DNA of 56,040 nt. Source: a virus. The stretch is from IMG/VR virus record IMGVR_UViG_3300003937_000295, positions 1-56,040 of that record; one strand, given 5' to 3'. The position numbers were made by a program, and so were the translations under genes. Below are positions 2,234 through 54,271 of the stretch, piece after piece (within the stretch, counting starts at the first letter, position 1; every line of letters starts with the position of its first letter). The notes under the pieces were generated by a model that saw nothing but the letters and a program-made list of their open reading frames with translations, did no database searches and was not told the origin of the DNA.

Positions 2234-4201
2234 TTATGCAATAGCAAGGAATAAGTAAGTGCCGCCATTATTGTTAATAGCAGCAGGGGCTGATGAAGTA
2301 ACTGTAAATCCTGCGTTAAGTGGGTCGATGTAATCAGTATTAGTAACTTCAGCGGCTGTGCTATTGACTAGAACATAAGGATCATTGCCAGCAACTATTC
2401 CACGCGCAGAATCCCAAACGTACCAATCACCTGAGCTGTCAGTACGTTTAATCATTACAAAGCGAGCGCCTGCCGTAAACCCACAATCAACGTTAATGTC
2501 ATTACCAGTTCCACTAAAAGTGCCTACTTTTGATACGCCGGGTAAGCTTGCAAACAAATAAGCAATATAAGTTTCGTTATTAGCGTTTACGTCATTGTCA
2601 GGTCCAACGGTAAATACAGACGCAGTTGGCGAAGTGTCATTCCAAAGTTCATGGTTATCAATTGAATCCGCGTTACTATTTAAAATTAAATAATCTGTAT
2701 TATCCCCATAATATACAGCCCAATTAACAGAACCGCTTCTACGTTTTACCCACATCATCTCAGGGGCAACACCAAGATTATGGGATTCAGTTTTTGTACT
2801 ACCTGTGCCAGTGTATGCAGCAACATCAAAGAACCCCAAAGCACGTTTGAAGAAATGCTGAATGCCACCGCTCGTCGATCCTGTAGTAAGGGTTTGAGTG
2901 AATTTACCTGTTGGAGCATCAAACTTCCAAGAAGTAAATGAACCTTCGGCGCTACCAGCGCCAGTAACAAGATACTTACCATTTCCAGTAAGTCTGCTAC
3001 CAACAAAAAATGAATAAGAGCCGCTTCTCACAGGTCTTTGCAATACCAAATCTGGCGCAAAACCAGGCGTAGAGGTTTGTGTATACGATGTAAGCAATTC
3101 TGGTTTAAATACTTCCGTTCCAGCCTCAGGCGGCTTATGCGGACGGCGGATTGCGATGTAGGTGTAATTGACGCCGCTTGAGTTTGCATTGTGATCTGCT
3201 TCTTTTAGTTGAAATCCAGTTGGCGTGACGCCTCCATATGTATGCGAATACTCTTGCGAATTTAAGTCGGCCATTAAATAATTATCATTCTGTCCAATCG
3301 TGTTAAAACCTCTCATTGTGTCAAGCATTAGCCAGTTGCCAGAGGCACTGGTGCTTTTTATCAGCACCCATTGCGGTTCAAAACCTAAAGTGATGGTATT
3401 GATAGGATCACCACCACCCGTGCCTGTACCTGTATAACTCCCACACTTAATAATCGACTCGTCACCATCCTCGCCAAACGATTGATCGTCGTGGGCGAAA
3501 AGGTAAGCGACAAAAGTTCCGCCATTGGTATTAACAGATCCATTCCCAGAGACATGAAAGGTCGCCGCCGTATGATCTTCGCCAGTGCCTGAACCCCAAA
3601 GACGTGTACCGCCAAATTGACCACCAGTGCTTTCAAGCTCAAGTTTTGCAAAATTTTCTGTAGTACCTGAACCCCCACCTGAATGCAAATTTCGGTGATA
3701 AACGATCCAGCTTTCAGAATTATCTGTTCTTTTAATCCAGATGCTGCCAGGTTCTGAACCTAGGTTGTGGGTTATATCTCTATCTGCCCCATTTCCTGTA
3801 TAAGTAACAACATCAAAGAATCCAGGCGCTTTGCGGAATGTCCAGGAGCAAATATCATCGTTATTTTCATTAACGTGCCCATTATCAGCAACAGCGAAAC
3901 CAGTTGACGTGAAAGACGTAATCATGTCCGTCTTTGTTTGCGCTGCACGGGCTCTATTGCTTTCAAGAACTGTATTAGTGCCGCGTTCAGTGTCAGTAAA
4001 TATGTGATCAGCCCCAGAACTTGCATTTCTATTTCTGATCCACACCAAGGCACCTTCGCCGCTCACATCAATGCCGTTATTTATCGTTTGGCTTGTCCCA
4101 TTTCCTTCATACAAAAACGTTGAAAATACGTCGTCAACGTAAACCTTGTCTCCAGATGCTCCAGCAGCACCCATCATCAGTGTTCTTGTTAAGTTACTCA
4201 T
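2234..4201 (-). CDS. Large tail-fibre / adhesin-like protein with repeated domains
   Basis: A 655-residue protein. At least three copies of a module can be seen with the pattern YTGxGxxxxxxHNLGxxPxxxWIKR...SWIVYHR..., at roughly residues 130-170, 250-290 and 460-500, separated by segments ending in YIAYLFA. This repeated module (DUF7483-like) is found in phage fibre proteins. The chaperone-like gene follows 3 bases downstream. The gene is visibly richer in G and C (GCCG, GGCG, CGCC strings) than its AT-rich neighbours, which suggests recent acquisition. It is probably receptor binding; the receptor is unknown. Confidence 0.65.
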   Translation of the reverse strand: MSNLTRTLMMGAAGASGDKVYVDDVFSTFLYEGNGTSQTINNGIDVSGEGALVWIRNRNASSGADHIFTDTERGTNTVLESNRARAAQTKTDMITSFTSTGFAVADNGHVNENNDDICSWTFRKAPGFFDVVTYTGNGADRDITHNLGSEPGSIWIKRTDNSESWIVYHRNLHSGGGSGTTENFAKLELESTGGQFGGTRLWGSGTGEDHTAATFHVSGNGSVNTNGGTFVAYLFAHDDQSFGEDGDESIIKCGSYTGTGTGGGDPINTITLGFEPQWVLIKSTSASGNWLMLDTMRGFNTIGQNDNYLMADLNSQEYSHTYGGVTPTGFQLKEADHNANSSGVNYTYIAIRRPHKPPEAGTEVFKPELLTSYTQTSTPGFAPDLVLQRPVRSGSYSFFVGSRLTGNGKYLVTGAGSAEGSFTSWKFDAPTGKFTQTLTTGSTSGGIQHFFKRALGFFDVAAYTGTGSTKTESHNLGVAPEMMWVKRRSGSVNWAVYYGDNTDYLILNSNADSIDNHELWNDTSPTASVFTVGPDNDVNANNETYIAYLFASLPGVSKVGTFSGTGNDINVDCGFTAGARFVMIKRTDSSGDWYVWDSARGIVAGNDPYVLVNSTAAEVTNTDYIDPLNAGFTVTSSAPAAINNNGGTYLFLAIA

Positions 4202-4202
4202 A

Positions 4203-5375
4203 TCAATTAACGTAATCTACTAATGATGAACCTCTAAATCTGGTGCCACCACTAGAAGTAGAAAAAATAAACAAGTGTGTCTTACCTGTTGTAAGTGTTG
4301 GTGCTGTATCTGCCGGGAACTTAACCGATGCTGGCCAAGTTACAGTTCCACTTGAGTGTGTCAGTTCTAATGTAAATGCATATGCACAACCTGTTGGTAC
4401 ATTAGCAAAGGTGAATGTGCTATTACCACTAATAGTCTTTGTAAAGTAGTTTCCTTGTGAACAATCAATCTCCAATGCACCCATTGCAGTGATGTTTTCT
4501 TTATAAGGTCCAGTTACACTTACTCCTGCACCTATTGTAGAAATACCAGCTGTAACGATAAGACCACCATTAGTAATTCTTACACCCGTTCTTGCGGTAA
4601 TAAAACCGCTTGAACTACTTCCAACGTAGATAGGTCCTCCCATATTTCCGTGAGAGGTACACTGATAATAAAGAATTGAAGGTGCATCAAATGGAACATC
4701 AAATATCAGATCAGTTCCATTACCTGCATCATTATTTGTAACACCATCATTATATGCTGTTCCTGCTGAACCATTTGGTGTGCTCTGAATTCTAAATGGG
4801 TGTCCTCCAGATCTATTCTTGAAGATATATTTTTGTCCTCTGATAAGTTGTAAATCAGGATCAGTATCACCACTTAAATCGCCAGGTCCAGTGAATGTAT
4901 AGTGATCAGTGCCACTTGCTCCAAGAGTCCAGAAAGCAATCGAAGCATCTAATGAAGTTGCAGTTACAATACCAACGAAATTTGCATTTCCAGTGCCACT
5001 TACAGAACCGCCAACACCAGCAAGTCCAAATTGAATTCCGCTTCTTGCGGTGACAACACCAATAGAATCGACATTGGTTACATCATCATAAGTTAATGTT
5101 CCACCAACAGTAACATTGCCAGTAAAAGTGGCGGCAACACCAGTAATATTGCCCACAACATCACCATCAAACGTGGTAGCAGTAACAAGACCAATCACAG
5201 TGACTTGTTCTGCGTTAATAAAAGCAGTATTGGCAAGACCAATTAAACCAGCCCCATTACCGCTAAAACTAGTAGCGGTGACAACACCAGTGACCGCTAA
5301 CCCATTATGAACTGTTAAACTATTTGCGGTGGAAAGACCAACACCACCTACTAATTGTGCCTTTGTCTGAGACAT
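4203..5375 (-). CDS. Tail-fibre-like protein with an embedded cupredoxin-like domain
   Basis: A 390-residue protein. Residues 1-140 are fibre repeats (VTATSFSG, VTVGGTLTYDDVTNVDS). Residues about 145-253 look like a blue-copper (cupredoxin) domain: GHPF with His192, then YYQCTSHGNMGG with Cys239, His242 and Met245. This is the full His-Cys-His-Met type-1 copper ligand set, with C-x2-H-x2-M spacing. Residues about 300-390 are the conserved fibre C-terminus (WPASVKFP ... LTTGKTHLF ... LVDYVN). A GATAAATA site lies about 25 bases upstream. The fold call is by motif; copper binding is untested. Confidence 0.7.
   Translation of the reverse strand: MSQTKAQLVGGVGLSTANSLTVHNGLAVTGVVTATSFSGNGAGLIGLANTAFINAEQVTVIGLVTATTFDGDVVGNITGVAATFTGNVTVGGTLTYDDVTNVDSIGVVTARSGIQFGLAGVGGSVSGTGNANFVGIVTATSLDASIAFWTLGASGTDHYTFTGPGDLSGDTDPDLQLIRGQKYIFKNRSGGHPFRIQSTPNGSAGTAYNDGVTNNDAGNGTDLIFDVPFDAPSILYYQCTSHGNMGGPIYVGSSSSGFITARTGVRITNGGLIVTAGISTIGAGVSVTGPYKENITAMGALEIDCSQGNYFTKTISGNSTFTFANVPTGCAYAFTLELTHSSGTVTWPASVKFPADTAPTLTTGKTHLFIFSTSSGGTRFRGSSLVDYVN
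4537..4595. repeat. 59-bp perfect direct repeat, copy 2
   Basis: Identical to 532-590. It lies within the cupredoxin-containing fibre gene, just after the copper-ligand region, and encodes the motif ARTGVRITNGG. Confidence 0.9.
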
Positions 5376-5397
5376 TATATTCGCGGTATTTTTTTAT

Positions 5398-5405
5398 TAT
5401 TTATC
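5398..5405 (-). promoter_or_regulatory. Candidate late promoter (GATAAATA)
   Basis: The minus strand reads GATAAATA 22-30 bases upstream of the fibre gene starting at 5375, matching the spacing of other candidate late promoters in the window. Confidence 0.5.
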
Positions 5406-5464
5406 AGGTTTGAAATACCTGCAAAAATATGGTACTATATAATTTTATCTGAAAGATATTTTAT

Positions 5465-6256
5465 ATGATTATTCTTACTGGCGCAAAGGGATTTATTGGC
5501 GTTAACTTTTTAGTTCATTTAGAGCAAAGAGGAAAAACAGTAATTAAAATAGAAGAGAATAATTACCTAAATTTTAGAGCAACATTTAAAAAATGGGATG
5601 AAGTGGAACTTATCCTTCATCAAGGTGCGATATCTTCAACTGTAGAAACTAACCTAAAAAAAATATTCTCTAACAATATTGAATTTAGTCAATGGTTATT
5701 TGAGAAAGCAGCAAAGTATAATATTCCAGTAAAATATGCCTCATCCGCTTCCGTATATGGAAACGAACAAGGCATCATCAATCCACTTAATTATTACGCA
5801 CTATCCAAAGTGACTATTGATTATTGGGTTCAAGATAATATGGATAGATTTCCTCTTATTCAAGGATTTAGATACTTCAATGTTTATGGAACACCTGAAG
5901 ATAATAAAGGAGACCAAGCAAGTCCCGTAAGTAAGTTTGCAAAACAAGTTGAAGAAACTGGTAAACTTGAATTGTTTGAAGGTTCTGATAAATTTTTACG
6001 AGACTTTATTTGGGTTGGAGATATTATCAAAATTGTTCTTGATAATGATAAAGGTTCTGGCATTTATGATCTTGGAACCAGCAACCCAGTGAGTTTTCAA
6101 CATGTTGCAGAGTGTGTCGCAGAACATTATTTTGGAAAAATTGAATACATCCCATTCCCCGAGCACCTAAAAAGTAAGTATCAAACTTATACTTGTGCTA
6201 AAAAAGAATGGGGTGATTATAAATTCAAAACTATCAAAGAGTATCTCCTTGAATAA
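5465..6256 (+). CDS. hldD: ADP-L-glycero-D-manno-heptose 6-epimerase (NAD(P)-dependent epimerase)
   Basis: A 263-residue short-chain dehydrogenase/epimerase. It has an N-terminal Rossmann motif TGAKGFIG, Ser in ASSASVYG and the catalytic YALSK (Tyr-x3-Lys). The segment YFNVYGTPEDNKGDQASP and the later FLRDFIWVGD match HldD closely. HldD converts ADP-D-glycero- to ADP-L-glycero-D-manno-heptose, the last step of ADP-heptose synthesis. It is shorter than the usual 310-330 residues. It is on the plus strand, and its 3' end overlaps the convergent cupin gene by 23 bases. A TATAAT-like element lies at 5438-5443, but no well-spaced -35 was seen. The neighbours supply the earlier pathway steps. Confidence 0.8.
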   Translation: MIILTGAKGFIGVNFLVHLEQRGKTVIKIEENNYLNFRATFKKWDEVELILHQGAISSTVETNLKKIFSNNIEFSQWLFEKAAKYNIPVKYASSASVYGNEQGIINPLNYYALSKVTIDYWVQDNMDRFPLIQGFRYFNVYGTPEDNKGDQASPVSKFAKQVEETGKLELFEGSDKFLRDFIWVGDIIKIVLDNDKGSGIYDLGTSNPVSFQHVAECVAEHYFGKIEYIPFPEHLKSKYQTYTCAKKEWGDYKFKTIKEYLLE

Positions 6257-6614
6257 CACGAATACTATCAGAGTCAAAGTGTTCTGTACTAAATTCAAAC
6301 AACTCTGTATCTTCTAGAGCATACATTTGATGTCTCATACCAACTGGAACGTGGAACTTATCTCCACGTTCTAATGTTTCTATGGTAGATAACTCAATGT
6401 CATCATTCCATCCATAGCAAATTCGTATCCTACCACTTTGAATGTAGAATACTTCGTCTTTTTTAATGTGATAATGCCAAGAACACTTTTTATCTTTTAC
6501 GATATAAAGTAATTTACCACAATAATCTTCAGAGTTTGCAATCCATTTTTCGTATCCCCATCCTTTTGGGACATACTTAATTGGTTCTCCTGCTCTAGGT
6601 TGTGAAGAAGTCAT
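6234..6614 (-). CDS. Cupin-domain sugar-phosphate isomerase-like protein
   Basis: The ATG at 6614 was chosen (126 residues) because AAAGGGG lies upstream and MTSSQPRAGEP leads straight into the domain; a longer frame from 6665 would overlap the upstream gene more. The core is YVPKGWGYEKW ... CSWHYHIKKDEVFYI ... GDKFHVPVGMRHQM, a single cupin barrel with metal-binding His residues, close to the mannose-6-phosphate isomerase type II or RmlC-like cupins. Its place among heptose genes suggests a sugar isomerase or epimerase. Whether it replaces the missing GmhA isomerase is speculation. Confidence 0.6.
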   Translation of the reverse strand: MTSSQPRAGEPIKYVPKGWGYEKWIANSEDYCGKLLYIVKDKKCSWHYHIKKDEVFYIQSGRIRICYGWNDDIELSTIETLERGDKFHVPVGMRHQMYALEDTELFEFSTEHFDSDSIRVIQGDTL

Positions 6615-6924
6615 CGGAGTGTACCCCTTTGTCGTCAATGTAATAATCTGCGGATGGTTTTCCAAGAAATAACTGATGATACTTACATCCCCACAAACTT
6701 AGTTGTATCTCTGTAAATTCATAGAATTCTTTCTTTGCCAGATCAGCATTATTATTATACCGACCCATTCCTCTGGCAGTAAGATAAACGATGGTATGAC
6801 CTTCGTCGTATAGTTTATTTATTTTGTCAATTCTATCCTGAATCGGCATTGCCTGTTCATATCGCATCTCTTCGGTAGGACCAGGAGTGCAGATAGTTCC
6901 ATCAATATCAACTACATATCGCAT
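6595..6924 (-). CDS. HAD-family phosphatase-like protein
   Basis: A 109-residue protein starting MRYVVDIDGTICTPG, with the HAD nucleophile motif D-x-D-G-T. A Thr motif (VYLTARG) follows at about residue 48 and KPSADYYIDDKG near the end gives the acidic motif. Small HAD proteins of this type are found in capsule and LPS operons as sugar phosphatases. It overlaps the kinase gene upstream by 17 bases and the cupin gene downstream by 20 bases, so it is probably co-transcribed with them. The substrate is not evident. Confidence 0.65.
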   Translation of the reverse strand: MRYVVDIDGTICTPGPTEEMRYEQAMPIQDRIDKINKLYDEGHTIVYLTARGMGRYNNNADLAKKEFYEFTEIQLSLWGCKYHQLFLGKPSADYYIDDKGVHSDDFFTT

Positions 6925-7699
6925 TTACATCTTCTCCGTTAAGTACATAAGTTCCTGTATGTGATACTGCTATTGCAGCAGATTTATTTGCTAAAGGTAT
7001 TGCATCTTCTATTCTACCATAAGTTAGGTATCCGTAGGCAAGTGTGGCAAGGAAAGTATCTCCAGCACCCACAACATCATATACACTCACCTTTTCGCCT
7101 GGATATAACTTACCTTTATATTCTGCACCCTTTGAACCTCTTGTAATAATAAGGTTTGGATGATCTTTATATTCCAATCTTGAATACTCATAGTCATTAA
7201 TTTTAATATACGCATCATCTATAGGTAGAGTTGTTTTCTTACTATCAATAAAGATTGGGCCATCAAACCACTCGACCAACTCAAATAGTCGTTTAGATGT
7301 TATAAATCCTTTGTTGTAGTCAGATATAACAAGTGCATCAAAATCACCCTCAGGCATATTACCTTTGAAGGGTTTGATATTATTTTCAGTATCAACTCTT
7401 AAAATCTGCTGATTAGACTTCTCATCAATATATCGTGTCTTTACGATGTTCTCATCGTTAGTAATCATCGTAATATCAATGCCAAAAGAAAGTAGATTAG
7501 CATGAACATTCCATGCCATGCCTTTTCTTGTTTCTGTTCTGATGTAATCTAAAACTGGAACAGGTGCTTCTGGATTTAATCGATTAACAGTTCCATAAAC
7601 ATATTCATCGATACAACTATCACCGATAAGTAATACCTTGAATGGTTTTTGTGGTGGAGTAGTCTCCGAGTCTATTGAAAAACCGAACTTCCTTTGCAT
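6908..7699 (-). CDS. rfaE1: D-glycero-beta-D-manno-heptose-7-phosphate kinase (HldE kinase domain)
   Basis: A 263-residue PfkB/ribokinase-family protein. The N-terminal GDSCIDEYVYG, the downstream NPEAPVPVLD (compare SPEAPVPV of HldE) and the C-terminal DVVGAGDTFLA with the catalytic Asp identify the heptose-7-phosphate kinase half of HldE. It phosphorylates heptose 7-phosphate at C1. In many bacteria this domain is fused to an adenylyltransferase; here the two halves are separate genes, and the kinase lies after the transferase with an 80-base overlap. The ATG at 7699 is the only ATG upstream of the conserved core. Confidence 0.8.
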   Translation of the reverse strand: MQRKFGFSIDSETTPPQKPFKVLLIGDSCIDEYVYGTVNRLNPEAPVPVLDYIRTETRKGMAWNVHANLLSFGIDITMITNDENIVKTRYIDEKSNQQILRVDTENNIKPFKGNMPEGDFDALVISDYNKGFITSKRLFELVEWFDGPIFIDSKKTTLPIDDAYIKINDYEYSRLEYKDHPNLIITRGSKGAEYKGKLYPGEKVSVYDVVGAGDTFLATLAYGYLTYGRIEDAIPLANKSAAIAVSHTGTYVLNGEDVNAICS

Positions 7700-8018
7700 A
7701 ATGTGAACCTACTACTTCTTTTCCTTTCCAGTCAGAACCTACCACCAGTATATCTGGACTGATGGATTCTAACAACTCTTCCAATTCTTGTTTGCTATCA
7801 AACATATGAACGACATCAACATAACGAATTGACGTAAGCATCAGTTCTCTATCATATTGTGAAAAAATAGGTCGTGTTGGACCTTTCATTTCTGCAACTT
7901 TCTTATCTGTATCTATGGCAACAATAAGATAATCCCCAAGAGATTTAGCATATTTTAGGAGTTCAATGTGTCCTGGATGAAGAACATCGAAACAACCATT
8001 GACAAATGATATTTTCAT
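7620..8018 (-). CDS. rfaE2: D-glycero-beta-D-manno-heptose 1-phosphate adenylyltransferase (HldE C-domain)
   Basis: A 132-residue nucleotidyltransferase. GCFDVLHPGHIELL carries the HxGH nucleotide-binding motif at about residues 9-18. KGPTRPIFSQYDRELML and PDILVVGSDWKGKEVVG are typical of the HldE adenylyltransferase domain. It would form ADP-D-glycero-D-manno-heptose from heptose 1-phosphate. It is the first gene of the minus-strand run transferase-kinase-HAD-cupin. The region between it and the plus-strand gmhB gene (8019-8099) must hold divergent promoters, but no clear consensus was seen. Confidence 0.8.
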   Translation of the reverse strand: MKISFVNGCFDVLHPGHIELLKYAKSLGDYLIVAIDTDKKVAEMKGPTRPIFSQYDRELMLTSIRYVDVVHMFDSKQELEELLESISPDILVVGSDWKGKEVVGSHYAKEVRFFNRLGDYSTTKTIQGITYR

Positions 8019-8099
8019 TAAAGTCCAAGTATAATCATAATGCCTCTTGATTTATTTAAATATATAATCTACAATTGGTATAGAAATAATAGCATAATA

Positions 8100-8753
8100 A
8101 TGGGAAGATATCAAACTAAAACAGTGTCTGCAACACAACCGCAGCAAGAAGGTTCTCCTTTTATGAACCAACAATCTCAATATTCGCCCGAGGATTGGCC
8201 ATCCATATTTACTAAATCTGTGATTGGGATTGATAGAGATGGGGTGATTAATGAGTGGAAGAATGTAATCAAAAGACGCGAAGACGTTCAGTTTATTTCT
8301 GGTTCATTAGAAGCAATCCGCAAACTTCGTCTTATCGGTCATAGAGTAATATTGTTTTCGGATCAACCCAACATTCAAAGAGGATTATTGACTCAACAAG
8401 ATGTGCAAGGTGTTATGCAATACATGATGCAACAATTTGGACAAGCAGGTATCTTCTCTATAGATGGTTTCTATTACAATACATCTGATATGTCTCAAGA
8501 TACTTTTGCAAAACCAAACATTGGTATGTTGAATAAAGCAAAAAATGAAGTAGGAGTTGATTTCTCAAAAGGATATTATGTTGGTGATACTATTGAAGAC
8601 ATCAAAATGGCAATCAAAGCAAAATCAACTCCAGTTCTTGTAAGAACGGGAAGAGGTGCAGATACTGAAAAGAAATATCTCAAAGCATTTGACACCAAAT
8701 ATAAAGATGTTCAAGTCTTTGATAGTCTGTTAGACTTTGCAAATTCACTATAA
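8100..8753 (+). CDS. gmhB: D,D-heptose 1,7-bisphosphate phosphatase-like HAD protein
   Basis: The ATG at 8100 was chosen (217 residues); an upstream ATG at 8040 would add 20 unlikely residues. After about 40 unconserved N-terminal residues, GIDRDGVINEW gives the D-x-D HAD nucleophile, ILFSDQPNIQRG aligns with the TNQ-x-G-I-x-RG loop of GmhB, and KPNIGML ... YVGDTIEDIKMA gives the Lys and acidic motifs. GmhB removes the C7 phosphate between the kinase and adenylyltransferase steps. The Cys residues of the zinc loop of typical GmhB were not seen. A bidirectional terminator follows directly. Confidence 0.7.
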   Translation: MGRYQTKTVSATQPQQEGSPFMNQQSQYSPEDWPSIFTKSVIGIDRDGVINEWKNVIKRREDVQFISGSLEAIRKLRLIGHRVILFSDQPNIQRGLLTQQDVQGVMQYMMQQFGQAGIFSIDGFYYNTSDMSQDTFAKPNIGMLNKAKNEVGVDFSKGYYVGDTIEDIKMAIKAKSTPVLVRTGRGADTEKKYLKAFDTKYKDVQVFDSLLDFANSL

Positions 8754-8754
8754 G

Positions 8755-8780
8755 AAAAGGAGGGTTTTATCCCTCCTTTT
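8755..8780. terminator. Bidirectional rho-independent terminator
   Basis: AAAAGGAGGG and CCCTCCTTTT form a perfect 10-bp stem around a 6-base loop. T runs follow in both directions. It separates the plus-strand gmhB-like gene from the convergent carbamoyltransferase gene. Confidence 0.85.
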
Positions 8781-8783
8781 TTA

Positions 8784-10517
8784 TTACTCTTCAGTTGTCT
8801 CTTCTACATTCTTAAGTGTTACTAACTTACCCATTTCTGGGAAGTAAAGATATTCAATCTTACTATTCCTCAAGGTGTTGATCGCGTCTTGAAGAGTTTC
8901 AACTAGTGGTTCGCCACCAAGATTGAAACTTGTGTTGAACAATATAGGAACATTAGATAATTTGTAGAACTCGTTAATTAAATCATAATAGTTTTTATTT
9001 TGTTCTTCAGTTACTGTCTGAACTCTACATGTTCCATCGACGTGAGTGATAGCAGGAAGTTCTCCAATCGCTTTTGTTTGAAGTTCTACTGCATACATCA
9101 TATATGGAGTTTCATCCATACCACGAAGGTCAAACCACTCACTAGCGTGTTCTTTGAGTACAGTTCCTGCAAAGGGACGGAACCATTCACGACCTTTCAC
9201 ACTATTAACAAAGTCTTTGCCATTGGTATCTGTGGGGTCATAAAGAATAGAACGATTGCCTAATGCTCTAGGACCTGCTTCTGATCTTCCTTGGAACATT
9301 GCGACAATATTCTTCTCACTAATCAGTTTAGCGATAGAAGCATTATCTGCATCAGACATTTCAATATCTTTGAAATACTTCAAGTCTTCTACAGTGTACT
9401 CGTAGTCTGGTCCAAGATAAAGAGTAGTCAATGGATCAGTTTCAAAATCAAGGTTTTGATTTTTACAATGCTGATATGAGTTATGCTTTGCCCAACCAAT
9501 AGAAGTTCCGCCATCATGTGCTACTGGGTCAACAAAGATATTAAGTTCGGGGAACCTTTCTTTGAAATAATAATTTGCAACACAGTTTAGACCATAACCA
9601 CCAGAGATAACAATATTCTCTTCGCCAGTAATATCTACTGCCTTCTCAATTAAATCGCCAACTCTTTCTTGCGTTTCTTGTTGAACTTTCCATGCAAGAT
9701 TTTTTGCAGCATCTGTAACTTTTGAAGGATTATGATGCCAATCTCTTGAATCTTCAGTTTTCTTCAGATAAGGAATTCGTTCAGAATCAATAAGTGCTCC
9801 TGCTGGATAATGAGGCATAAAAACATTTTTATCACCTCTTCCAGTATCTTTATAGAAGAGATTTGGAATATTTGGATCTTCTTTACCATAAGGTGCAAGA
9901 CCCATAGTTTTTCCTGCATCAATAAATCCAAAATTAAGATATTCTGATACTGCTTCGTATGCTTTTACGGTAGTTACAGTGCCATCAATTTGAGAGTCTG
10001 GTGCATCAATATGGGGAATACCATTATTTGCTCCAATCTTATGAACTGCTTTAATTTCATCATAAGAGCACTTGTAAATTGTTTCAGTTTCAAATGCCTC
10101 AATACTATCTTTTGGATCATGAGAAAATCTAAAGTTAAAGATACTACCGCTACCATCAACAATGACCGCAGCTGCTGTTTCAAAACCAGAATTGTAGAAC
10201 GCACTGTACGCATGACCGTCATGATGTTTTGATCCAACTCTAGAGATTTTTACATTAGGATAATACTTTCTAACTAGAGCACCATAAGAATCTTCTCCAG
10301 TCCAGGGAAGACGATGATTTTCTTGTCCAGTTCCTGCAATAATAAGTTCATTAATGAAATAACTATCCATAATATACATCATTGCACGAAAGGGATTACC
10401 GTCATATTTTTGACGAGTCATTCTTTCTTCTTCAATATAAAGTTCTAACTTACCATCAGATACAAGGGCAGCAGAACCATTATGTCCAGGATTGATTGCT
10501 AATACGTTGTAAGTCAT
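8784..10517 (-). CDS. O-carbamoyltransferase, NodU/CmcH family
   Basis: A 577-residue protein with the two-part family architecture. The N-terminal ASKHA-type domain shows NPGHNGSAAL (about residue 9), EEERMTR and KHHDGHAYSAF (about residues 97-107, metal and carbamoyl-adenylate site), then VIVDGSG and GGYGLN. The C-terminal YrdC-like part has GRSEAGPRALGNRS, FRPFAG and LFNTSFNLGGEPLV. The enzymes transfer a carbamoyl group from carbamoyl phosphate to sugar hydroxyls. Its start overlaps the GT9 stop (ATGA), so the two are translationally coupled. A carbamoylated glycan is the likely product; the acceptor is unknown. Confidence 0.85.
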   Translation of the reverse strand: MTYNVLAINPGHNGSAALVSDGKLELYIEEERMTRQKYDGNPFRAMMYIMDSYFINELIIAGTGQENHRLPWTGEDSYGALVRKYYPNVKISRVGSKHHDGHAYSAFYNSGFETAAAVIVDGSGSIFNFRFSHDPKDSIEAFETETIYKCSYDEIKAVHKIGANNGIPHIDAPDSQIDGTVTTVKAYEAVSEYLNFGFIDAGKTMGLAPYGKEDPNIPNLFYKDTGRGDKNVFMPHYPAGALIDSERIPYLKKTEDSRDWHHNPSKVTDAAKNLAWKVQQETQERVGDLIEKAVDITGEENIVISGGYGLNCVANYYFKERFPELNIFVDPVAHDGGTSIGWAKHNSYQHCKNQNLDFETDPLTTLYLGPDYEYTVEDLKYFKDIEMSDADNASIAKLISEKNIVAMFQGRSEAGPRALGNRSILYDPTDTNGKDFVNSVKGREWFRPFAGTVLKEHASEWFDLRGMDETPYMMYAVELQTKAIGELPAITHVDGTCRVQTVTEEQNKNYYDLINEFYKLSNVPILFNTSFNLGGEPLVETLQDAINTLRNSKIEYLYFPEMGKLVTLKNVEETTEE

Positions 10518-11458
10518 TTTACTTTCTCCTTAATATCTTTTACAATTGCTTCGTAGATGTTATCAACATCTTTATCACTAAATTCCATACATCTATCATT
10601 CTTACGATCTGCTAGATGTGAATCTAAACCACAAATACGAATTGGTGAGTATTCTTTCTCTACGTTTTCATTTTCAATAATCTGAAAATGATCTGGATAT
10701 GTAATGTTTACTGCATGTGTTGAACCAAGAATAACTGTTCCTGGTTTATTAAATGCTCGTGCCATATGTTGACCAACACTATCACAACCAATAAAGTAAT
10801 CGCACCCCTCAATAATTGAAGCCCAACCACGGAGATCCATCTGTAGTTTGGCACTAATTTGATCCTCTTGAGAAATTAACTGTGCATATTCACCTTCTCC
10901 CATAAAAACAATATTATACTTTTGAGAGAGTTTTTTTACAAGTTTATAGTAGACTCCTGGTTCCAAAGATCTACTACTGTCATCAATAATATCCCCATTA
11001 TCAATTCTTGCTGACCTACCAAAAGGTTGAATTACAATAGTAAGATTTTTATTTTGTTTATTTTTAACTTCTGTAAGAATATTAGAGGCGTTCTTTTCTT
11101 CTCCTTTGCTTAAAACTAACTCTGGAACTCCAAGGTCAGAATGATCTTCTGTTTCGTTGATAAGTTTATCAAAACCCTCTACAAGAGAACACTTTTGATT
11201 GAAATATTCCCAGATTCTATAAGGTTCTGGAGTAATAATGTCAGAATCTTTTAATAAGTTTTTAAAGATTCCTTTTACATCAGAACTATAAACTCTGTCT
11301 TGAAGTTCTGGAATACCCCAAAATAAAGTATCCCAACCGAAAGCAATCGCTGCCCAATCTTCGTCAGGATGGTTTCTTGCATATTTTTTTAGTGCTGGTA
11401 TTGCGGCAATAGCCCGTCCCGCTCCACCGTCAATGGCGAACACCTTTCTTCTTTTCAT
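10514..11458 (-). CDS. Glycosyltransferase family 9 (heptosyltransferase-like)
   Basis: A 314-residue protein. The N-terminal GGAGRAIAAIPALKKY corresponds to the G-x-GD-x2-x2-P-x-L acceptor loop of ADP-heptose:LPS heptosyltransferases. A second half starts near residue 145 (LTIVIQPFGRSAR), followed by the donor-site segment CDYFIGCDSVGQHMARAFNKPGTV, which matches the D-S-G-x-x-H-x-A element of GT9 with one change (DSVGQH). GT9 enzymes use ADP-heptose, which the neighbouring genes would make. It is coupled to the carbamoyltransferase by ATGA. No signal peptide or membrane segment was seen. Confidence 0.7.
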   Translation of the reverse strand: MKRRKVFAIDGGAGRAIAAIPALKKYARNHPDEDWAAIAFGWDTLFWGIPELQDRVYSSDVKGIFKNLLKDSDIITPEPYRIWEYFNQKCSLVEGFDKLINETEDHSDLGVPELVLSKGEEKNASNILTEVKNKQNKNLTIVIQPFGRSARIDNGDIIDDSSRSLEPGVYYKLVKKLSQKYNIVFMGEGEYAQLISQEDQISAKLQMDLRGWASIIEGCDYFIGCDSVGQHMARAFNKPGTVILGSTHAVNITYPDHFQIIENENVEKEYSPIRICGLDSHLADRKNDRCMEFSDKDVDNIYEAIVKDIKEKVK

Positions 11459-12003: not shown

Positions 12004-12729
12004 TTAGGATTGAGTGTATCCACTATATGCCGATGAGCGAAGTCTCTTACCATATATTCTAAATGAACCGCAGTGACATATAATGCAACTACCGCCATAA
12101 TCCAATGCTACCTTACAAAACTCTTCCCAGCAAGTCCTGCAGAGACAATTTTCCCACCCATTAGTGTGTATCTCTTGACAAACAGACCACGTACAAGTTG
12201 AAAAACATACTCCAAAACCTGCACTTGGATTACATGCAGGTAAGAAAGGAAACCTAGCAAAACATCCTACATAATTTCCACCCTGCCAACATGCGGTCCC
12301 GGTCACTTTGATACAATGAAAACATAATGCTTGGGTAAAACCAAGAGAAGTGGGAGCTGGATCGCCCTCATACTTATAAAACCCCGAACAGCAAGTGCAA
12401 TAGCAATCCTTATTTCCAATTTTCATGGACAGATTCATTGCAGCAGTAGCCTGGCCATATAAACCATTCACTTCCAATTTATACGCAGTAAATTTGCAAT
12501 TATCTGCATCTGCAGTGCTTGGAAATGTAAATTCAACACAAGTGCCATAACATTCATCTATACCATTGCATTCACATATCAACTCCCAATCAGTTCTGAT
12601 ACAACAAATGTTTGTTCCATCGCCTGCAGTAAGTGTACCAGTATAAGATGGAAGGAGAGTGCAAACATTACTGTCTCCATAAGTGGCACCACCACCACTA
12701 GAACCTGCGCTTCTTAAAAATCTACTCAT
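12004..12729 (-). CDS. Cysteine-rich structural protein (27 Cys in 241 aa)
   Basis: Not recognised as a family. A 241-residue protein with 27 cysteines (11%), many as CC, C-x-C or C-x2-C, for example DCYCTCCSGF and SCIICHC. There is no signal peptide. The N-terminus (MSRFLRSAGSSGGG) looks like a flexible virion anchor. Its ATG overlaps the stop of the 636-residue Cys-rich gene (ATGA), so the two are made together, and a fibre chaperone follows. A tail-tip or fibre component is inferred from position. The cysteines could form disulphides outside the cell or bind metal. Confidence 0.6.
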   Translation of the reverse strand: MSRFLRSAGSSGGGATYGDSNVCTLLPSYTGTLTAGDGTNICCIRTDWELICECNGIDECYGTCVEFTFPSTADADNCKFTAYKLEVNGLYGQATAAMNLSMKIGNKDCYCTCCSGFYKYEGDPAPTSLGFTQALCFHCIKVTGTACWQGGNYVGCFARFPFLPACNPSAGFGVCFSTCTWSVCQEIHTNGWENCLCRTCWEEFCKVALDYGGSCIICHCGSFRIYGKRLRSSAYSGYTQS

Positions 12730-14636
12730 CCTTCATACCCCCAAACTTGAGCGGCGAGACCTTCAGTTGTATCATTATTAACAATAACACTTTCACCATC
12801 TGAAATTACAACACCAGTTCTTTCATAGTTATTTGTACTTACACCAAAGTCAAAATATCCACACTTTGGAACAACATCGTTAAAATTGTTGCAACTGGTT
12901 CTTAAGCAATTATCAAAGGTTTCATATTTAAATGTAGTACTAACATTCCACGTAAAGTCTGGTGCAACAGATTTCCAACTAATCAAATCTTCTGTTGTAA
13001 ATCTATCCCATTCTGTAGTATCATGATTATAAACTGTAATTGACCAGAACGGATTTGCTTTTGGAGACATTCTATAAAGACACCCAACACACATCAATGG
13101 AGTTATATATTTAGTTGCAGTCATTACTGATGGGAAGTCTGCAACTTTCTCAATATAAGGACTGTCCGTAACTGTAGTCCTTTTAAAGAATGCATTTTGA
13201 TTTTCTGTCCCTTCTTGAGTACAAATACAAGTGCCGGTGCAGAGGCCCTCACCAATATAATCTGCAAACTTATATTCGAAAATTCCACAGTTAGCTTGTT
13301 TCGACGATCTTACCATAAAGTAAGTTTTTTCAACAGAGACCTTGGGATTATATGCAAGGTACTTAATTGGATATTCACATCCAGATGAGTCTGGAACAGC
13401 AATATCTAACACTTCCCAATTTACACAGGAGCATAAGCTCAGTTGTTGCTGAAATTGACAACCAGGATATGCACTAAGGTATCTCGTAACTCCGCCACAA
13501 GTTTTCATTGCAAATAATGATTCACCATAAGTTGCTGCTCTTGCAACTCCATACGGAGACATAAGATTTGATGTACCCAGATTACAACAAGGTTGATTGC
13601 ACGCCATTACGCCATCTCCGCACACACTAAGTGCAACTGCTAGACGGTTCTTGCATGTACCCAAGCAGCAACAGGGTATTAAATCTCGAAATCCAAAGAA
13701 GCAAGTGCTTACAGCACAGCAACATCCTCCAGCAAATACTCTGAGCGCACAAAGGTATGTACCATTAGCTGTTCCGACTTGTCCACAGCACCCTGCAAAA
13801 AATCCGACAACTGGTGGTTGCAAAGTGCCACTCTCTGCCCCGCCGCACCGGCAAACCAGGCAGACGGCAGCAGTTCCTATGCACACTTCACCTGCATTTT
13901 TTATATAAAAAGGTGGAGCATAACTATTAATCGCATATAGACTACACTCAGTGCAAGCAGTGGGAGTGGAGAAATATGAAAAACTTTGATGATAAATCAT
14001 ACATGGCGAACTAACATTCACATCCCCATAACCAAAATTAGCACCAGCGCAGTCGCACTGTGGATTTATAAACATTGCTCCTGCAAATTCACAGCAACAG
14101 CAAAAGTTTTTAGAACCAATAAATAATGGTCTAATCCCATGACAATCGAATGTCATGAATGCATCTTTATGAACCATCCTGTCCGCACCATTCGTAATCT
14201 CAGAACGATCGGCAAACATATCCTCACCAGGCAAAATACGTTCACTACCACCATATGGAGCTGGTGATAGAAGTGCAGTGCCTGCGATAGAAGTTCTAGT
14301 TCCATTAGGGTTCATGAAACTAGTTGGTCTTGTAGATACCGTTCCGCCAATTGCAGTGGATGATTGTATCCATGCGCCATGAGGATCGGTTTGTCCCGTA
14401 CCAGCAACGGTAATTGCACTAGTATCTTTGAAACAGTTAGTACCTACTGCTTCGTTTTGACTGGATACTAAACAATATGCAGTCGTACCTGCTGCAACAC
14501 TGATTGTATTATTTACAGAAGCATTCAGTCCTTGAGCACCAATTGAAATTGAAGCTTGACTACCAGAACTATTTTGATAAATCTCACAAGATGAGTATGC
14601 CGGAATACACTTAAATCCTAATCTTCCGTTAGCCAT
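12726..14636 (-). CDS. Large cysteine-rich fibre-like structural protein (47 Cys in 636 aa)
   Basis: A 636-residue protein. Residues 1-160 are Ser/Thr/Gly-rich and fibre-like. Residues about 170-430 hold most of the 47 cysteines, with runs such as CCCC, CCC and CC (NFCCCCEF, GGCCCAV, PCCCLGTC). The C-terminal 200 residues have fewer Cys and more aromatic residues (WEVLDIAVPD, FTWNVSTTFKYE), suggesting a beta-sheet domain. An AGGAG ribosome binding site precedes the ATG at 14636. It is coupled to the smaller Cys-rich gene. The family is unknown; a receptor-binding or adhesin role is inferred from its place among fibre genes. Confidence 0.6.
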   Translation of the reverse strand: MANGRLGFKCIPAYSSCEIYQNSSGSQASISIGAQGLNASVNNTISVAAGTTAYCLVSSQNEAVGTNCFKDTSAITVAGTGQTDPHGAWIQSSTAIGGTVSTRPTSFMNPNGTRTSIAGTALLSPAPYGGSERILPGEDMFADRSEITNGADRMVHKDAFMTFDCHGIRPLFIGSKNFCCCCEFAGAMFINPQCDCAGANFGYGDVNVSSPCMIYHQSFSYFSTPTACTECSLYAINSYAPPFYIKNAGEVCIGTAAVCLVCRCGGAESGTLQPPVVGFFAGCCGQVGTANGTYLCALRVFAGGCCCAVSTCFFGFRDLIPCCCLGTCKNRLAVALSVCGDGVMACNQPCCNLGTSNLMSPYGVARAATYGESLFAMKTCGGVTRYLSAYPGCQFQQQLSLCSCVNWEVLDIAVPDSSGCEYPIKYLAYNPKVSVEKTYFMVRSSKQANCGIFEYKFADYIGEGLCTGTCICTQEGTENQNAFFKRTTVTDSPYIEKVADFPSVMTATKYITPLMCVGCLYRMSPKANPFWSITVYNHDTTEWDRFTTEDLISWKSVAPDFTWNVSTTFKYETFDNCLRTSCNNFNDVVPKCGYFDFGVSTNNYERTGVVISDGESVIVNNDTTEGLAAQVWGYEG

Positions 14637-46205: not shown

Positions 46206-46438
46206 TATTATAATATGCGATAGTTGCATGGAACTTATCTATGGGATCAACAGTCTCCCCCAATGCACTTCTTATTCTTACTTTCACTTCTTCATTACTA
46301 ATCTCTTTCAAGATCTGTCGCAGTTCATCATCATCAAACTTGACATAATAGGATTTTTACTGGCATCGGTTCATAACTACTTGGTTTCTTTGATTTACCA
46401 GGAAGACTCATACCCTGTGTGTCAATTTTGTCTTTCAT
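46195..46438 (-). pseudogene. Frameshifted small gene (80-codon frame interrupted at an A5 run)
   Basis: An ATG at 46438 (overlapping the purM stop, ATGA) opens MKDKIDTQGMSLPG... but runs into TGA after 34 codons. Removing one A from the run of five at 46354-46358 (TTTTT on the plus strand) restores an 80-codon frame to a TAA inside the start of purS, with the well-formed segment YYVKFDDDELRQILKEISNEE. No family recognised. Either a sequencing or assembly indel, a real disruption, or slippage. Confidence 0.65.
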
Positions 46439-47231
46439 TTTACTTCTCCAATAACCCAAGATCTCATACCAAAAGGAGTATCAGCGATCAAAGTTTGAGT
46501 ATGTTCTACTACCTCTTGTGGGACAACTAAACAGAATCCAATACCAAGATTGAATACATTTCTCATTTCTTCCTCTGCAATGTCTCCCGCTTCCTGGATC
46601 TTGTTAAAGAGTTCTGGTCGTTCCCAAGCATCATAATCAACATCAACTGTAAGACCCATTGGAAGGCATCGTGGAAGGTTTTCGGGCAGTCCCCCTCCCG
46701 TAATATGTGCCATACCTAGGATAGGAACTTCATCCAATAGGTGCTGAATGAGACGAGCATAGATGGTAGTAGGTCTCAGCAACTCAGGCATATCCTTGTA
46801 GAAAATCTTATGTCTCCACAACATATCATTGATGAGTGTGTATCCATTACTGTGAAGACCACTACTCTCAATACCAATGACTACATCACCTGCTCGGATG
46901 TTACTACCATTAATAACATCATTCTTCTCTACAATACCAGTACAGAAACCAGCAACATCATAATCATTTTGTCTGTAATGCCAGAACATATAACGTCATT
47001 GACGCACATAGCAACGAGATCTTGACCAATAGTGTTGTAATCATCAGCAATCCCACAGATATTCATTTTAGTTCCGACACCATCAGCACCAGATACTAGT
47101 ACTGGATTTTCATATCCTGATGGGACTTCCATCATTCCACTGAACCCACCAATCTTAGGTGCCAATACCTTTAGATACTCCACGAAAGATCGACCTTTAA
47201 TAATGTCAACACCAGAAGTTTTATAGTCCAT
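46435..47231 (-). pseudogene. purM: purM (AIR synthetase), internal deletion plus frameshift
   Basis: The N-terminal part (46929-47231) has [10 protein letters not shown] and ... CVNDVICSG; the C-terminal part (46435-46989) starts in another frame with [16 protein letters not shown] and has HITGGGLPENLPRCLP. Intact PurM is about 345 residues; 84 plus 180 remain, and about 50-60 residues, including the GGETAEMPG block, are missing at about 46980-46990. PurM closes the imidazole ring (FGAM to AIR). Its stop overlaps the next gene start. Confidence 0.8.
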
Positions 47232-53129: not shown

Positions 53130-53600
53130 TCACTTAACATTTCCTGGCGATAAGGATTGAAAAATTTTGGAACAAGCATCAACAGCATAGGGTGCTCCAT
53201 ATACTCCAGAGAAAATATATGAGATGCCCAACTTGGAGCAATACTTTTCAAGTTCCTGACACTTTGATATGTCTCTGTTGCTATGATCAATGATGATATC
53301 ACCCCCCTCAAGTAATGGTAGCAACTCATCAAGTGTGTCTTCTACTTTTTGCTCTGGGAGTGTGATCTGAAAGATGCCAGGAATTCTACCAGCACTAGTA
53401 AATTTCTTACCATCAGACTTAACTGCTTGGACAAGATACTCTAGTGAGGTTACACACCCACTAATATATCCTGCCTCATATTGTCCACAAGCACTTTCGT
53501 AGTTAGTACTACTATAACCCCAGACTTCAATTCCCTTTTCAATCATACGGCGGGACATGCCTTCACCAGTACGACCTAAGCCAATCATTCCTACTTTCAT
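53130..53600 (-). CDS. gnd: 6-phosphogluconate dehydrogenase, C-terminally truncated
   Basis: A 156-residue protein. The Rossmann motif GLGRTGEG is at residues 7-14, and EQYEAGY-like GQYEAGYISGC, GDIIIDHSNRD and GISYIFSGV match the NADP domain of Gnd. Cyanophage Gnd is over 300 residues; the helical dimerisation/substrate domain is missing and a new gene starts 10 bases later. Gnd makes ribulose 5-phosphate and NADPH; this form is unlikely to be active alone. It directly follows talC. Confidence 0.75.
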   Translation of the reverse strand: MKVGMIGLGRTGEGMSRRMIEKGIEVWGYSSTNYESACGQYEAGYISGCVTSLEYLVQAVKSDGKKFTSAGRIPGIFQITLPEQKVEDTLDELLPLLEGGDIIIDHSNRDISKCQELEKYCSKLGISYIFSGVYGAPYAVDACSKIFQSLSPGNVK

Positions 53601-54271
53601 TAATTACTCCCAACAACTGACTGCCAATCGTTCTCAAAAATTTCCATACCTTTATCTGTAAGAATGTGATCATACATTTGATCAAATACCTTCGGTGGCA
53701 TCGTACAGATGCTAGCACCATTATACCATGACCTCACAGCACGTTGAACACTACGAATTGAAGCAGAAAGAATTTGAGTTCTCACACCATGAATTCGATA
53801 CAGTTCAGAGATGGATCTTACAACCTCCAGTCCTGCGACTGATTGGTCATCTAAGCGTCCAACAAAAGGTGAGACATATGTTGCCCCTGCCTTTGCTGCT
53901 AGGACTGCCTGAGAGGCACAGAAGATAAGTGTGACATTAACCTTAATGTTCTGATCGGATAAAGATTTACAGACTGCAAGACCTTCTCTTGTACAGGGAA
54001 CCTTCACAGTGCATACGTCACCAAACTTTTCATGAAGACGTTTGCCTTCACAATACATCTCACCTTCTGTTCCCATTACTTCCATACTGATATCTTTGAC
54101 ACCAATATCTTTGATTTCTTGATATACATCTTCTGGATTTCGACCACTCTTTAAGATGAGTGAAGGATTGGTTGTGACACCATCAACTAATCCTGTCTTA
54201 AAGTATTCATTAATAATTTCTGTATCGGCAGTGTCAAGAAAAATTTTCATATAGTTGTGTGTATACTTCAT
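53600..54271 (-). CDS. talC: Transaldolase-like TalC
   Basis: A 223-residue protein. The usual start MKIFLDTADTEIINEYF begins at 54250; the ATG at 54271 overlaps the plastocyanin stop and has AGGAG upstream, so both are possible. VDGVTTNPSLILKSG, TVKVPCTREGLAVCK (Schiff-base Lys in VKVP), NVTLIFCASQAVLAAKAGATYVSPFVGRLDD match TalC. It moves C3 units in the pentose phosphate pathway and can supply or consume sedoheptulose 7-phosphate. Intact. Confidence 0.85.
   Translation of the reverse strand: MKYTHNYMKIFLDTADTEIINEYFKTGLVDGVTTNPSLILKSGRNPEDVYQEIKDIGVKDISMEVMGTEGEMYCEGKRLHEKFGDVCTVKVPCTREGLAVCKSLSDQNIKVNVTLIFCASQAVLAAKAGATYVSPFVGRLDDQSVAGLEVVRSISELYRIHGVRTQILSASIRSVQRAVRSWYNGASICTMPPKVFDQMYDHILTDKGMEIFENDWQSVVGSN

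Follow-up and report, generated by a model that had tools for sequence, protein, structure and literature searches.

The DNA examined here is a 56,040-base virus record from IMG/VR (IMGVR_UViG_3300003937_000295, positions 1 to 56,040), referred to throughout as the window; typical genes, among them those for plastocyanin, PurC and the transaldolase TalC, mark it as a T4-like cyanophage. A block of eight genes (Table 1) lies between a pair of tail-fibre-type genes and one for a tail assembly chaperone; a preliminary description had read it as a module for ADP-heptose synthesis, heptosyl transfer and carbamoylation. Family searches recover all the enzymes named there in their places, and the proposed ATGA coupling of the carbamoyltransferase and GT9-like genes is borne out by a four-base overlap at 10514-10517. 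Left unmentioned were two further genes inside the block, encoding a small cupin and a small HAD phosphatase. The predicted function of the cupin (starting at the ATG at 6614, with a TTG at 6665 as a possible alternative) is very probably that of the missing isomerase, which would take GmhA's place in some bacteria as well as in this family of viruses.

Table 1. Genes of the block and the transaldolase gene of the same window, with the evidence for each assignment
Feature	Position	Strand	Evidence
HldD-like ADP-heptose 6-epimerase (T4-GC 308)	5465-6256	+	TIGR02197 213 bits
Cupin ketol-isomerase, proposed sedoheptulose-7-phosphate isomerase in GmhA's stead (T4-GC 307)	6234-6614	-	Profile, Foldseek, active site, kinase fusions
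Small HAD phosphatase, EcbF/BcbF-like, candidate heptose-1,7-bisphosphate phosphatase (T4-GC 306)	6595-6924	-	TIGR01689 38.8 bits, HAD-IIIA
HldE1-like heptose-7-phosphate kinase, PfkB family (T4-GC 305)	6908-7699	-	TIGR02198 129.7 bits, PF00294
HldE2-like heptose-1-phosphate nucleotidyltransferase (T4-GC 304)	7620-8018	-	TIGR02199 123.3 bits
GmhB-like HAD-IIIA phosphatase, accessory	8040-8753	+	PRK08942 112 bits
NodU/CmcH O-carbamoyltransferase (T4-GC 303)	8784-10517	-	PF16861 + PF02543
GT9-fold heptosyltransferase-like glycosyltransferase (T4-GC 302)	10514-11458	-	Foldseek; PF01075 19.5 bits
Transaldolase TalC	53600-54271	-	PF00923 171 bits

The block and its recurrence in cyanophages

The epimerase scores far higher against TIGR02197 than against GalE (40 bits), and its YxxxK motif (Y111/K115) and K148 are invariant across ten phage homologues. 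For the kinase, TIGR02198 is the best NCBIfam match, and the protein keeps the GAGDTF motif and, for the most part, RLxPEAPVPV; the nucleotidyltransferase matches TIGR02199 best of ten families, the glycerol-3-phosphate cytidylyltransferase model reaching 78.8 bits. The small HAD directly adjoins the cupin 72 times over 80 viral loci, and this near-constant presence makes it the candidate for the block's phosphatase. The GmhB-like HAD, on the other hand, has a sole close relative among annotated phage records (by tblastn), in marine virus AG-345-O18 (L007:11253-11981, minus strand), relative to which the window's gene is inverted with respect to the carbamoyltransferase gene; the cysteines that form the zinc loop in GmhB are missing from it.

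The gene order epimerase-cupin-HAD-kinase-nucleotidyltransferase-carbamoyltransferase-GT9 is repeated in S-CAM1, S-CAM3 and P-SSM2, recurs with insertions in S-SSM7 and Sf-FS3, is shortened in S-T4, S-SM2 and P-TIM68, and is found on many IMG/VR contigs, so that a chance arrangement can be set aside. Among the 80 IMG/VR contigs with the best cupin matches, many of them short, the HAD accompanies the cupin on 76, the kinase and the epimerase on 65 each, the nucleotidyltransferase on 61, the carbamoyltransferase on 32 and GT9 on 22, and GmhA on none. Two IMG/VR contigs (L129 and L132, at about 4,100-10,340) carry two tandem nucleotidyltransferase-kinase-cupin sets with a HAD between them, the first set being much more divergent; these possibly serve two different activated sugars.

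The module itself is already known: T4-GC 304, 305, 307 and 308 were reported in 2010 to co-occur in three phages, as functionally linked 'lipopolysaccharide (LPS) genes' (Sullivan et al., PMC3037559), heptose gene names stand in GenBank phage records, and the idea of phage LPS genes acting on host surfaces is already in the literature. In the literature searched, we found no explanation of the module's missing isomerase step. One apparent answer comes from annotation: the small HAD, which has relatives in 387 phage records, is labelled 'phosphoheptose isomerase' in PHROG 1238 and in many RefSeq records, those of T4-like enterobacterial phages among them (RB69ORF051c). The 'phosphoheptose isomerase' of P-SSM2 and its relatives is, however, the block's small HAD and has no SIS fold, and we rejected it as the missing enzyme.

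The cupin and the GmhA step

As the window is a record of 56,040 bases, the absence of a gene from it proves nothing by itself. A search with PF13580 (SIS_2/GmhA), which gives hits in control genomes such as that of E. coli, found no GmhA in the window or in ten related records, eight of them complete cyanophage genomes; all eight carry the cupin and the kinase.

Searched against the Protein Data Bank (PDB), a profile built from 54 cupin homologues had the D-lyxose ketol-isomerases 2y0o and 7nzo as its top matches over the whole domain, as opposed to the cupin core alone. The AlphaFold model (predicted local distance difference test score 97) likewise finds its best Foldseek match in 7nzo (E 8.4e-11). 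In this enzyme, TsLI, mannose or fructose is bound by K62, H75, H77, K86, E88, H143, E156 and D163 (PMC8378251), and in the HMMER alignment, where the 7nzo chain numbering is offset by 24, these eight residues fall in order on phage K25, H38, H40, K43, E45, H86, E98 and D105. Six of the eight are invariant across the 54 homologues; H38 is kept in 53 of them, and 52 have Asp or Glu at the position of D105. Cysteine dioxygenase, a function also ascribed to the phage cupin, was rejected: the active-site residues that are not ligands (K25, K43 and E98, present in 54 of 54, and D105, corresponding to TsLI K62, K86, E156 and D163) fit ketol-isomerases. The cupin fold is present, and its metal site of three His and one Glu (H38, H40, E45, H86) is conserved. 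The block's family is marked by HYH and KGWGYEKW, whereas a sister subfamily carries a KPWG motif and has Gln where the first His would be. A sister small cupin of this kind (active site K-Q-H-K-E-H-E-D) is a common stand-alone gene in the class that contains Candidatus Peribacteraceae (L158-L177), in many cases some 8 kb away from a gene of GlmS size, and is probably a small phosphomannose isomerase.

Bacterial genomes also connect the cupin to the heptose kinase. On a Candidatus Peribacteraceae contig (L052), a single protein of 457 residues consists of the cupin followed by an HldE1 kinase (TIGR02198, 318 bits), and the two genes after it encode, in this order, a GmhB-HldE2 fusion and a heptosyltransferase. 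The class of this metagenome-assembled genome (MAG) comprises 192 genomes, 13 of which have an HldE1-grade kinase, and in five of the 13 the cupin and kinase form one protein (459-570 amino acids). In these five GmhA is missing from the neighbourhood of the kinase, and in four of them from the whole genome. In contrast, all eight genomes with an unfused kinase carry GmhA near it on the same contig; 17-111 bases separate the two genes in six of these genomes, and 1.1 and 2.6 kb in the other two. Fisher's exact probability for this swap is 1/1287 if kinship is ignored. On one contig of genome G015, one kinase adjoins the cupin and a second, some 17 kb away, lies near a GmhA. In the Binataceae the cupin is found in 36 of 41 genomes and a strong GmhA in four of the 41, with an HldE kinase in all genomes of the family tested for it. 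A phylum-level survey around this family returned mostly cupins of the phosphomannose-isomerase type, and was uninformative on the swap but helped to separate the subfamilies. Several MAG contigs in GTDB (L011-L016 and L053, assigned to Rhodobacteraceae, Euryarchaeota, Planctomycetaceae and others) carry phage module genes and have the appearance of phage DNA that was binned with MAGs; for this reason they were left out of the cellular cupin loci.

Could the host supply D-glycero-D-manno-heptose-7-phosphate through its own GmhA, leaving the cupin as an unrelated sugar-modifying enzyme or regulator? Among 151 genomes of the Prochlorococcus/Synechococcus family, 29 do have a clear GmhA (TIGR00441, E<1e-20). 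This is nonetheless unlikely: some 80% have no clear one, so that hosts cannot generally supply the enzyme, the cupin retains a complete ketol-isomerase active site, and in the five fused genomes it stands in GmhA's place. The earlier statement that only GmhA is missing holds as far as sequence goes, whereas the step itself is very probably filled by the cupin.

Proposed pathway and alternatives

We consider it likely that the block encodes a cyanophage ADP-heptose pathway without GmhA, in which the cupin does GmhA's job. Sedoheptulose-7-phosphate would be isomerised by the cupin, and the product phosphorylated at C1 by the PfkB kinase; the small HAD, and in this virus perhaps also the GmhB-like HAD, would take off the C7 phosphate, after which the nucleotidyltransferase would form ADP-D,D-heptose and the HldD-like enzyme convert it to ADP-L,D-heptose. 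From there the GT9-fold transferase would attach the heptose to an acceptor, and the resulting product would be carbamoylated by the NodU/CmcH enzyme. TalC can raise sedoheptulose-7-phosphate, the starting material, and its presence in the same window may be connected with the block. The preliminary description had proposed an ADP-heptose pathway from the sequence alone; the family searches agree with it, and its genes do co-occur in related cyanophages, a pattern whose absence it had named as grounds for refutation.

The carbamoyltransferase scores above cut-off for both of its domains (PF02543 65 bits, PF16861 204 bits) and matches TobZ, GdmN and other solved structures at 1e-44 to 1e-51. 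WapO of Pseudomonas, a heptose 7-O-carbamoyltransferase, is of the same family (PMC8005017), and by this analogy action on heptose, as first suggested, is plausible here too. For the GT9-like protein the Pfam match lies under the 22-bit cut-off, and neither phmmer nor a profile found a match among PDB sequences; aligned by hhalign with the Peribacteraceae GT9, its profile pairs in the donor-motif region alone. The predicted structure indicates a heptosyltransferase fold, in keeping with the GT9 identity first proposed: the nine best Foldseek matches in the PDB are all GT9, led by 3tov from Veillonella (6.8e-11) and 2h1h, WaaC with an ADP-heptose analogue (7.7e-11), and including WaaF 1psw (2.8e-9) and TibC 4rb4 (1.4e-7).

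As to the acceptor, the LPS of marine Synechococcus, said in the preliminary description to lack heptose, is indeed reported without it for WH8102 and CC9311 (PMC4515613), and the acceptor would therefore be either a newly synthesised surface glycan or one of the virion's proteins. In S-SSM7 and Sf-FS3 the block adjoins 2-oxoglutarate-Fe(II) oxygenases and prolyl hydroxylases, and this, like the tail-fibre setting, fits either acceptor.

Several observations weigh against the proposed pathway. Every heptose-family score falls under its NCBIfam equivalog cut-off (274.6 for the epimerase, 345 for the kinase and 181.5 for the nucleotidyltransferase), and we therefore regard the block's proteins as divergent, shortened relatives. 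In the GT9 family Arg15 is invariant in 22 sequences at what is, on our own reading of the alignment, the apparent position of WaaC's catalytic Asp (D13), and so its chemistry may differ. The swap statistic for the 13 genomes takes no account of shared ancestry, MAGs and single-amplified genomes are incomplete, and in G239, one of the fused genomes, a different contig encodes a divergent SIS protein. Lastly, the sister subfamily of the cupin resembles mannose-6-phosphate isomerase, of the type II or small kind, and some bacterial HldE-cupin neighbourhoods also hold GDP-mannose dehydratase.

These last two points would suit a hexose rather than a heptose as substrate, a reading we find quite unlikely. 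An HldD-type 6-epimerase makes sense on heptose only, the kinase and nucleotidyltransferase score best against heptose families, the window's block revealed no GDP-mannose genes, and it is GmhA, an enzyme that acts on sedoheptulose-7-phosphate, with which the cupin swaps. It is from this epimerase, this kinase family and this swap that we infer a chain of seven carbons and not six. That the cluster is non-functional cargo, a genome stuffer, as raised for cyanophage LPS clusters by Sullivan et al. 2010 (PMC3037559), is highly improbable, as the frames are intact and catalytic residues are invariant across divergent phages whose proteins are down to 40-60% identical, which implies purifying selection.

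Returning to the pathway with the cupin in GmhA's place, we lean, with less assurance than for that pathway, towards a broader proposal: that a cupin family unrelated to GmhA performs the first committed heptose step in cyanophages, Binataceae and Peribacteria-type lineages, and that phages thereby install a self-contained, carbamoylated or plain, heptose glycan pathway in hosts whose LPS reportedly contains no heptose and which mostly lack GmhA. The gap noted in the preliminary description would then be closed, turning the vague 'LPS gene cluster' of abundant ocean viruses into a complete pathway that can be tested, and the role of heptose in cyanophage infection, if this is true, would be open to direct test. 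A second, non-homologous enzyme is thereby proposed for the GmhA step, itself an antibacterial target, and two widely copied misannotations are corrected: 'phosphoheptose isomerase' for the HAD, and 'nucleotidyltransferase' or 'cysteine dioxygenase' for the cupin.

Elsewhere in the window, two adjoining structural-looking proteins (12004-12729 and 12726-14636, minus strand) are very rich in cysteine, at 11.2% and 7.4% against 0.2-0.8% in the fibre proteins nearby, and have no Pfam match. Two minus-strand open reading frames are short forms or fragments: one at 53130-53600 with the NAD-binding half only of 6-phosphogluconate dehydrogenase, the other at 46435-46989 with the C-terminal domain only of AIR synthase (PurM).

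Comparison with known systems

At the end of the pathway, the block shares its carbamoyltransferase family with WapO and its transferase fold with WaaC, WaaF and TibC, differing from WaaC by the Arg at the apparent Asp position. The phage cupin shares with the D-lyxose/D-mannose ketol-isomerases (2y0o, 7nzo) the cupin fold, the Mn-site ligands, the catalytic Lys and Glu, and the motifs VNxxxYCxK, KxETF and E-F-S; it differs in being shorter, about 20% identical, and encoded among phosphosugar enzymes, for which reason we propose a phosphorylated C7 substrate. Type II and archaeal small phosphomannose isomerases (7zvm, 7zvy) likewise pair a small cupin domain with the conversion of a ketose to a manno-aldose phosphate, but it is the sister cupins with Gln and KPWG that resemble them, and not the block's HYH and KGWGYEKW family.

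In P-SSM2, S-SM2 and S-SSM7 the clusters described as 'LPS genes' contain the same orthologous genes (T4-GC 304, 305, 307 and 308; PMC3037559), under other names: there no role is assigned to the cupin, which records call a nucleotidyltransferase or a cysteine dioxygenase, and the HAD is misnamed a phosphoheptose isomerase. Finally, the bacterial GmhA-HldE-GmhB-HldD route to ADP-L-glycero-D-manno-heptose resembles the phage block in the families to which its kinase, adenylyltransferase, phosphatase and 6-epimerase belong and in the sequence in which they act. The phage version, however, makes its kinase and nucleotidyltransferase as separate short proteins, relies on an EcbF-like HAD and not the classical GmhB as its constant phosphatase, and is carried by a virus, with a cupin where bacteria have GmhA.

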